The translations under genes were made by a program, and so were the position numbers. The notes beneath the pieces are model-generated. The model was not told the origin of the DNA and searched no databases. It saw nothing but the letters and a program-made list of their open reading frames with translations. Below, piece by piece: positions 12,626 through 14,563 of a stretch of DNA of 64,000 nt. This DNA is from Bacteroidota bacterium (GTDB taxonomy: Bacteria; Bacteroidota; Bacteroidia; Chitinophagales; LD1). Where the stretch lies: the NCBI GenBank assembly GCA_018267365.1, contig JAFDYQ010000008.1, positions 1 through 64,000 of the forward strand, in the 5' to 3' direction. Position 1 is the stretch's first letter, and each line of letters opens with the position of its first letter.

Positions 12626-13072
12626 ATGAAGACGATGCTTGCGTTTTTTCTTTTCGCCGGTATAAACTTTGTCGCCAGCGCACAGGCTGTCAGCAGCAGC
12701 AGGTGGCAGACAGATTTTACGATTTCAAAGCCCTCTCATCGCTCCGTCCTGTTCGCCTCACAGACGTATGAGAGGAGATCCGTACAGCTATACCAGAACA
12801 CAAAAGAACCCCATTCACCGGCCAGGATCAAAAAGCTCCGCACTGCATCCATAGTACTGGCCGCTATAGGCGGAGGATTACACATTCTGGGGTTCACTAT
12901 GAATGCCGCAGGCACCATGACCTATAACTTTTATCAGCGCAATACTATGTATGGCATAGGTGGTGTTTCTAATGTGGTAGGTCTTGGTAACGGTATAGCT
13001 GATATGGGTACATGGATAGCCTATGCAGTCCAGATGAAAAAGTATAAGCGCCGGCAGCAGACAGTCAGATAG
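12626..13072 (+). CDS. Secreted or membrane protein of unknown function
   Basis: A 148-aa protein not recognised. A signal peptide covers residues 1-19 (cleavage after ASA). A basic segment (RIKKLRT, about 68-74) precedes a hydrophobic, Gly-rich stretch (about 76-98), and another Gly-rich hydrophobic stretch lies at about 112-135, before a strongly basic end (KKYKRRQQ). This layout fits a small inner-membrane protein with one hairpin, or an outer-membrane lipoprotein-like protein without lipobox. It is flanked by a TonB receptor (divergent) and a photolyase-like gene (convergent) and shows no operon partner. Confidence 0.6.
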   Translation: MKTMLAFFLFAGINFVASAQAVSSSRWQTDFTISKPSHRSVLFASQTYERRSVQLYQNTKEPHSPARIKKLRTASIVLAAIGGGLHILGFTMNAAGTMTYNFYQRNTMYGIGGVSNVVGLGNGIADMGTWIAYAVQMKKYKRRQQTVR

Positions 13073-13093: not shown

Positions 13094-14563
13094 TTACAGC
13101 TGCCTTAGATATTTCTCCGCCACCTCTATGTGCTTTGTCAGAGTAGCTTTATCCATACGGGATACCAGAGCAGCCATCATACTCATGCGCGGATTCTTTG
13201 CAAACTCATCGTGATGCTTGTTTATAAAGCGCCAGTAAAGCCCATCCCATATCTCGCACCAGGCACCTTTTGGGTAGTTGCTCATCTTCAGGATATAGTT
13301 ACTACCGGATATATACGGCTTTGTACTCATCAGGCCACCGTCGGCGTATTGGCTCATACCGTACACATTGGGCACCATGACCCAGTCGTAGCTATCTATA
13401 TACAGCTCCATAAACCACCGGTAGACGTCATCCGTCCGGATACCGCACAGCAGCATAAAATTGCCCAGTATCATCAGGCGCTCTATATGGTGCGTATAGC
13501 CTGTCTCTATCAGGCGCGCTATGGCCATATCTATGGGTGGCAGTCCGGTAGTACCTTGGTACAGAGCCTCCGGCATAGGCCGTGTATGCTCCCAGAAATC
13601 ACGCGTGCGCTCATACACACCGCGCTCTGAGTACATGGCCCGCACGTATTCGCGCCAGCCCAGCACCTGCCGTACGAATCCCTCCAGAGAGTTGATAGGT
13701 ATGGCGTATGCAGAGGCGTATGCCATAGCCCGCTCTATGATGTCAGAGGGTTGCAGCAGGCCCACGTTCAGCATGGGCGTCAGTATGCCATGAAAGAGCC
13801 ACCGCTCCGCCCCCACTATCGCATCCTGATAGATACCAAAGCAGGCAAACCGCTCTCTGAGAAAAGTATCCAACCACTGCTCGGCATCTGCATGCGTCAC
13901 CGGATACCAGATGCGGTCTATGCTACCGGGATTAGCACCGAAATATCTCTGCACATACGCCGTGGCCTCACTGATATAGCTACTCTCTGTCACCACAGGC
14001 AGCGTAGGGACCACAGTCCCTTTTGGTAGCTTCTTTCTATTCTCACTGTCGTATGTCCACTTACCACCTATTGGCTTCTCCCCCTTTTCCAGCAGGATAT
14101 TATACTTCTTGCGCAGGTGTATATAGTATTCTGTGAGGAAATATTTATGATCCTCAAAGTAGGCATGATTGTCTGCTTTGCTTTGGATGAAGGCGGGACT
14201 TTCAGACACCACCAGCTTTATACCATGTCTGCCGGCAAAGCGGTGCAGCCTCCGCTCCAGCAGGTAGTCTGTAGTATCAGCATAGTGGCATGCATGCACT
14301 CCGGCTACAGCTATCTTCAGAAAGAAATGATCGAGGTCCGCATCTGCACCAGGGCTGTCTATATAGTTTACTTTATGCCCCATCTGCCGCAGATAGTCTG
14401 CATAGTATTTCATACTGGCTCGGTGCAGCAGCAGTTTTTGCTTGTGAAAGGCGTATTGACGAAAGTAGAGGCAGTCTTCTATCAGGTACACCTCTCTGCC
14501 ACAGGCCAGGGAGGGATGATGCCTATACAACTGATGCGGAAAGACCAGCGTGACAGATGACAT
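13094..14563 (-). CDS. Photolyase-related protein lacking [4Fe-4S] ligands
   Basis: A 489-aa flavoprotein of the deoxyribodipyrimidine-photolyase-related (FeS-BCP, PhrB-like) family, members of which repair (6-4) photoproducts in light. The N-terminal Rossmann-like domain begins TLVFPHQLY; the FAD-binding helical domain contains GMSQYADGG, KPYISGSNYI and the final LYWRFI motif. In characterised members a Cys-x2-Cys pair and a third Cys near the YW motif bind an iron-sulfur cluster. Here the pair is replaced by NYPKGAW, the loop is about ten residues shorter, and only one Cys (WCEIWDGLYW) remains. The start is the Met before SSVTLVFPH; 28 upstream in-frame residues look non-coding. Activity may be photolyase or photoreceptor; the family is sure, the role is not. 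Confidence 0.85.
   Translation of the reverse strand: MSSVTLVFPHQLYRHHPSLACGREVYLIEDCLYFRQYAFHKQKLLLHRASMKYYADYLRQMGHKVNYIDSPGADADLDHFFLKIAVAGVHACHYADTTDYLLERRLHRFAGRHGIKLVVSESPAFIQSKADNHAYFEDHKYFLTEYYIHLRKKYNILLEKGEKPIGGKWTYDSENRKKLPKGTVVPTLPVVTESSYISEATAYVQRYFGANPGSIDRIWYPVTHADAEQWLDTFLRERFACFGIYQDAIVGAERWLFHGILTPMLNVGLLQPSDIIERAMAYASAYAIPINSLEGFVRQVLGWREYVRAMYSERGVYERTRDFWEHTRPMPEALYQGTTGLPPIDMAIARLIETGYTHHIERLMILGNFMLLCGIRTDDVYRWFMELYIDSYDWVMVPNVYGMSQYADGGLMSTKPYISGSNYILKMSNYPKGAWCEIWDGLYWRFINKHHDEFAKNPRMSMMAALVSRMDKATLTKHIEVAEKYLRQL

Follow-up and report, generated by a model that had tools for sequence, protein, structure and literature searches.

A probable PhrB-type (6-4) photolyase lacking iron-sulfur cluster ligands in a Bacteroidota bacterium

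The gene, its product and its setting

The window (the whole stretch of DNA analysed, 64,000 nucleotides) carries on its reverse strand, from 14563 to 13094, a single open frame with no internal stop. The frame translates from MSSVTLVFPH to KYLRQL* and contains the motifs GMSQYADGG, KPYISGSNYI and LYWRFI, all three of which an earlier note on this DNA had correctly listed as signs of an intact family body. The gene and its product are referred to below as the window gene and the window protein.

13094..14563, reverse strand: coding sequence of a probable cluster-free PhrB-type (6-4) photolyase, 489 amino acids plus stop (Pfam, phmmer)

A Pfam search of the window protein found the DPRP domain (PF04244) at residues 6-219 (1.6e-50) and the FAD_binding_7 domain (PF03441; 8.6e-8), both above their curated cut-offs. 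The best solved relatives found by phmmer are PhrB (4dja, 6.8e-79) and other bacterial (6-4) photolyases. An AlphaFold2 model of the protein (pLDDT 91.5) aligns with PhrB 4dja at Z 50.0 and 1.9 Å over 483 residues (VIA-align); bacterial (6-4) photolyases or CryB take the first ten places among the structural entries (Z 43-50), well ahead of the next family at Z 30. Against its two nearest relatives, which are congeners, the window gene has a dN/dS of about 0.11-0.12, a rough value since dS exceeds 1, and this speaks for a working protein.

The window gene is convergent with an ORF at 12626-13072 and divergent from the next ORF. The ORF list shows no obvious regulator adjoining it, and no repair gene adjoins it within the window. 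The source genome (4.6 Mb) has no second copy of the gene on any of its 76 contigs. Two other genes have a photolyase FAD domain. The one on contig C10 is closest to deoxyribodipyrimidine photo-lyase models among the NCBIfam families, with scores under the curated cut-offs of these models; the other is a short gene on contig C4, a different contig from that of the window gene. The short gene (locus L002, 976-2079, minus strand) encodes P0002, a protein of 368 aa in which the photolyase FAD domain is N-terminal and the C-terminal part matches no assigned family.

Cluster site, active site and antenna pocket

The ligands of the [4Fe-4S] cluster of PhrB are C350, C438, C441 and C454. At these four columns, 275 aligned rows divide into 122 with four Cys and 153 with none, with nothing between. 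The two types were split by identity to the window protein (four-Cys rows below 38%) and the split was verified against the four ligand columns. Of the 153 cluster-free rows, which include the window protein and some fragments (for example L023, apparently frameshifted near its end), 151 differ in sequence from one another.

When PhrB is added to the 275 rows, none of its four ligand positions is kept in the window protein (0/4). C350 is replaced by Pro343, C438 and C441 face gaps in a 10-residue deletion, and C454 is replaced by Glu437. The PhrB segment with the CxxC pair, YcdtcrydPKerlGDNACPFNALYW, aligns with NYPKGAWCEIWDGLYW, which is 10 residues shorter, and the family alignment agrees. 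The C-terminal Cys-x2-Cys pair is therefore gone and the loop shortened by about ten residues, as the earlier note had described. Its statement that one cluster Cys position remains was mistaken, because Cys436 of the window protein sits in the column of PhrB Ala453, one position off C454, and the C350 position, on which the note is silent, is lost as well. Position 436 is not conserved among the 153 cluster-free rows (Cys in 38, Gln in 75).

13535..13537, reverse strand: Pro343, at the position of PhrB ligand Cys350 (alignment)
13229..13282, reverse strand: segment SNYPKGAWCEIWDGLYWR, in place of the Cys438-x2-Cys441 ... Cys454 loop and 10 residues shorter than in PhrB (alignment)
13244..13261, reverse strand: W435-C-E-I-W439-D440, with the clade signature W-x3-W (alignment)

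The C350 column holds Pro in 150/153 cluster-free rows and Cys in 122/122 four-Cys rows. W435 and W439 are each found in 150 of the 153 cluster-free rows, and the pattern GxWxxxW[DN] occurs in 135 of them and in 0/122 four-Cys rows. Cluster cysteines elsewhere in the protein, a possibility raised in the earlier note, were not found: the last 110 residues hold a C-x2-C...C set in 0/153 cluster-free rows, and in 100 of these rows they hold no Cys at all. In a 44-row alignment of cluster-free proteins (A2), C373 is the only Cys among the positions that are invariant or conserved at the 90% level. This Cys373 (NFMLLC) is kept in at least 90% of the 44 rows; PhrB has NFALLA there, with no Cys.

As none of the four Cys is present in any of the 153 rows, and as dN/dS is low, the cluster-free state is neither a sequencing error nor decay. 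Mutants of PhrB in the cluster Cys are reported as insoluble or not expressed (PMC4619345), so that a cluster-free version would need compensating packing. Trp435, Trp439 and Pro343 may provide it by packing into the place of the cluster as a hydrophobic plug.

The alignment also places the following residues of the repair and electron-transfer sites.

13487..13489, reverse strand: His359, equivalent to catalytic His366 of PhrB (alignment; role from PMC4619345)
13295..13315, reverse strand: Tyr417 to Tyr423, equivalent to lesion-binding Tyr424 and repair Tyr430 of PhrB (alignment; role from PMC4619345)
13412..13417, reverse strand: Trp383-Phe384, equivalent to electron-transfer Trp390 and proximal Tyr391 of PhrB (alignment)
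13559..13561, reverse strand: Tyr335, at the position of distal electron-transfer Trp342 (alignment)
14048..14050, reverse strand: Asp172, equivalent to Asp179 of PhrB, Mg2+ site (alignment; Caulobacter counterpart D178, PMC12082625)
13823..13825, reverse strand: Asp247, equivalent to Asp254 of PhrB, Mg2+ site (alignment; Caulobacter counterpart D253, PMC12082625)

PhrB requires His366 and Tyr424 for repair, and Trp342 and Trp390 pass electrons (PMC4619345). The window counterparts of the residues that bind or protonate the (6-4) lesion are His359, Leu363, Met403, Tyr417 and Tyr423. Across the cluster-free rows, PhrB His366, Leu370, Met410, Tyr424, Tyr430, Asp179, Asp254 and Trp390 are kept in 150-153 of 153, with Trp390 at 150 and the other repair and Mg residues at 151-153. 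The His366 column holds His in 152/153 cluster-free and 122/122 four-Cys rows, the Tyr424 and Tyr430 columns hold Tyr in 153/153 and 152/153 cluster-free rows, and both Mg2+-site Asp are present in every row of either type (153/153 and 122/122). In the Trp342 column, Tyr is found in 93 and Trp in 57 cluster-free rows (Tyr or Trp in 150/153).

14534..14539, reverse strand: Pro9-His10, at the antenna-pocket residues Gly9-Asp10 of PhrB (alignment)

An antenna role is described for Gly9/Asp10 (PMC9178010). The corresponding columns of the cluster-free rows hold Pro in 150/153 and His in 131/153 (Asn in 17/153). The Asp10 column is firm in the four-Cys rows (Asp in 119/122), whereas the Gly9 column is unreliable there (Gly in 76/122, the rest mostly misaligned). 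Two further antenna residues of PhrB, Lys47 and Met55, are kept in the window protein as Lys43 and Met51. The earlier note had raised the idea of changed photochemistry. It is not borne out by the electron-transfer positions, which are kept (Trp383; Tyr or Trp at the distal site), but the exchange of Gly-Asp for Pro-His gives a fair basis for expecting an altered or absent antenna and so offers a hint, at the level of sequence, in its favour.

Phylogeny, genome distribution and neighbourhoods

Within the Bacteroidota sample, four-Cys proteins are 29.9-35.9% and cluster-free proteins 42-100% identical to the window protein. The tree comprises 50 cluster-free and 36 four-Cys proteins, 86 in all and not including PromaPL; one branch divides the types with an SH-aLRT of 100, and one branch still divides them when the ligand columns are removed. 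A cluster-free clade of its own, as the earlier note had suggested, is thus present, and its active-site residues are conserved. Such a group is already in print: of seven subgroups of prokaryotic 6-4 photolyases, subgroup M, with 20 sequences of various lineages including PromaPL, is described as the only one without the four Cys (PMC9178010). The cluster-free side of the tree contains Bacteroidota, Planctomycetota, Verrucomicrobiota and cyanobacteria, with one record each from Spirochaetota, Balneolota and Ignavibacteriota; many of its members are metagenome bins, whose taxon labels may be wrong. Four cyanobacterial genomes of 1.6-1.7 Mb encode a cluster-free protein that is 41-42% identical to the window protein and falls in the same clade.

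When a tree of the FAD domain is rooted with other photolyases, the cluster-free rows are nested inside the four-Cys rows, and the four-Cys rows form one group in 0% of 200 bootstrap trees. The alternative, in which the four-Cys rows make up a single clade, survives the AU test (p-AU 0.393), and the outgroup sits on a very long branch. For these two reasons we do not claim the loss of the ligands, as put forward in the earlier note, to be demonstrated; a loss of the cluster in the cluster-free branch is likely.

The four-Cys form occurs in 92 and the cluster-free form in 40 of 395 Bacteroidota genomes; no genome has both, where 9.3 genomes with both would be expected if the two were independent (Fisher p 1.7e-5, from counts that ignore shared ancestry). 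Two of 49 further genomes with a cluster-free gene, both Mucilaginibacter, hold a second DPRP gene, and in each both copies are cluster-free. These genomes, G691 (L067/L284) and G706 (L083/L282), each carry two different cluster-free copies. Ten more genomes included that of Polaribacter irgensii 23-P (G493), whose loci L283 and L101 hold between them one cluster-free and one four-Cys DPRP photolyase. Strict mutual exclusion of the two types was accordingly rejected, and the types are not strictly interchangeable; P. irgensii 23-P is a good strain for telling their roles apart.

Gene neighbourhoods were tallied in an even sample of 37 cluster-free and 62 four-Cys loci with context, drawn from the Bacteroidota sample. 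A short FAD-domain relative of the photolyases (such proteins also go by the name NewPHL) was matched near 17/37 cluster-free but only 3/62 four-Cys loci, and a class-I-like photolyase near 18/37 and 4/62, respectively; the two tallies overlap, as photolyase families cross-match. The short relative is present in 15/40 cluster-free and 4/92 four-Cys genomes. Strong matches to it (E <1e-38) occur in 19 of the 395 Bacteroidota genomes. Each of the 19 also has a DPRP photolyase gene, and the short relative is at most 5 kb away from it in 11 of them (10 cluster-free, 1 four-Cys). This company of other photolyases, together with the genome-by-genome replacement of one form by the other, speaks for a role in DNA repair.

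A small protein of the TIGR03643/DUF2805 type was also seen near cluster-free genes, at 32/114 cluster-free loci (L134:4465-4743 and 31 others) and 1/67 four-Cys loci; in the even sample the figures are 10/37 and 1/62. A flavin reductase was considered as a dedicated partner on the strength of first counts of 18/114 and 3/67, yet the even sample gave 4/37 and 4/62, and the candidate was rejected.

Mobile elements were searched for relatives of the window protein. None of 50,697 phage records matched. Matches were found in 87 plasmid records, all below 60% identity; two Persicobacter plasmid records stand at 45-46% identity, and the one examined is cluster-free. A scan of IMG/VR viral contigs confirmed one relative, on IMGVR_UViG_3300016474_001053 (L280:3827-5410), which is 37% identical, lacks the C-x2-C...C set and has an altered loop, DDDWVELWN. 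Nothing in the phage, plasmid or viral searches supports an origin of the window gene from a mobile element.

Interpretation and comparison with known systems

The product of the window gene is most probably a (6-4) photolyase that has the PhrB fold but no [4Fe-4S] cluster and belongs to the cluster-free group of PromaPL, a reading to which we give a probability of about 0.85. The sequence, the clade, the conserved residues, the predicted fold and the genome distribution are direct findings, whereas repair activity, the type of lesion, the Trp packing and an iron-free state of the actual protein are inferred. Blue light would reduce FAD to FADH- through a relay of Trp383 and Tyr335, and the excited reduced flavin would then give an electron to the (6-4) photoproduct, which Tyr417 and Tyr423 would hold together with the two Mg2+-binding Asp, while His359 would protonate the lesion. 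The C-terminal subdomain, which in PhrB is stapled by the cluster, would be held here by packing of the shortened segment through Trp435, Trp439 and Pro343.

Loss of the cluster might have gone with a shift of specificity to cyclobutane dimers, as CPD specificity has been suggested for the cluster-free Phr2 of picocyanobacteria (PMC9426592). Such a CPD photolyase is improbable here, however, because all but one of the cluster-free rows retain the (6-4)-specific His366, Tyr424 and Tyr430 are conserved with it, and the exchange H366N abolishes (6-4) repair in PhrB (PMC4619345). The source genome, moreover, already has another photolyase on C10 and the short FAD-domain relative on C4, and PromaPL, itself without the iron-sulfur cluster, is termed a prokaryotic 6-4 photolyase (PMC9178010). 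Still less probable is the persistence of an iron-sulfur cluster bound through other ligands, which we consider next to negligible: Cys436 does lie near the C454 position and C373 is conserved at the 90% level in the 44-row alignment, but there are not four, nor even two, conserved Cys to hold a cluster, and about two thirds of the cluster-free rows (100/153) have no Cys in the last 110 residues.

The signalling role proposed in the earlier note would make the protein a cryptochrome-like blue-light receptor that uses FAD photochemistry without repair. RsCryB has been reported to regulate gene expression (PMC9178010), and the loss of a cofactor could go with a new role. The window protein, at 489 aa, nevertheless has no C-terminal signalling extension, the last helix of the model reaching residue 488 of 489. 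Its repair residues are conserved, the cluster-free form replaces the four-Cys enzyme across genomes, the genes of its relatives often adjoin other photolyase-type genes, and no obvious regulator lies beside the window gene. The proposal is therefore not supported, and we regard a receptor as very unlikely.

The reading as a cluster-free (6-4) photolyase fits a group that has been described; the feature is genuine but, with subgroup M in print, mostly ordinary and not new in kind. According to a 2025 paper, it is unknown what the [4Fe-4S] cluster does in prokaryotic (6-4) photolyases (PMC12082625). A well-populated cluster-free branch with an otherwise unchanged active site permits stability, DNA binding and electron transfer to be compared between natural enzymes with and without the cluster, and the replacement seen at genome level suggests that the enzyme can do its work without it. 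It is possible, if rather doubtful, that throughout the cluster-free branch the cluster, its replacement by P343 and W435-x3-W439, and the antenna residues (Gly-Asp to Pro-His) changed together, giving enzymes with a different antenna or none and with a tryptophan plug of purely structural role where PhrB has a redox cofactor. Some of this has been hinted at in print, where subgroup M is said to show a complex pattern at the antenna site and to have possibly diverse antennas (PMC9178010); neither the tryptophan plug nor its coupling to the Pro-His change appears in the literature passages on the group that were consulted. If the coupled change were true, the cluster-free enzymes would be a natural control showing the purpose of the PhrB cluster. 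Of all the points raised here, the accompanying change in the antenna pocket most deserves study at the bench.

The short FAD-domain relatives, of which P0002 is found in the same genome, belong to the same photolyase superfamily as the window protein. Unlike it, they lack a DPRP domain and carry the FAD domain towards the N-terminus, and they are companions in the genome only. Relatives of this kind have been described as the SPL type (PMC9649867) and as Phr7 with inverted domains (PMC9426592).

The FeS-BCP proteins (PhrB 4dja, RsCryB and those of Vibrio, Caulobacter and Synechococcus elongatus) share the whole fold with the window protein (Z 43-50, 1.9-2.3 Å) at 28-31% identity in the structural alignments, and also the catalytic His, the lesion Tyr, the Mg Asp and the electron-transfer Trp390. 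The window protein differs from them in having no cluster ligands, a loop 10 residues shorter than that of PhrB, the W-x3-W segment and Pro-His for Gly-Asp in the antenna pocket.

Several orthologues have been noted to miss cluster cysteines (PMC12082625), and most picocyanobacterial Phr2 are described as lacking them (PMC9426592). The closest likeness is to subgroup M (Prochlorococcus PromaPL and picocyanobacterial Phr2), which shares with the window protein the absence of the four-Cys set, the PhrB-type body and an occurrence in several lineages. The window protein groups with cluster-free cyanobacterial proteins and not with the four-Cys members, PromaPL itself being compared by its published description only, and unlike PromaPL it represents the group in Bacteroidota.
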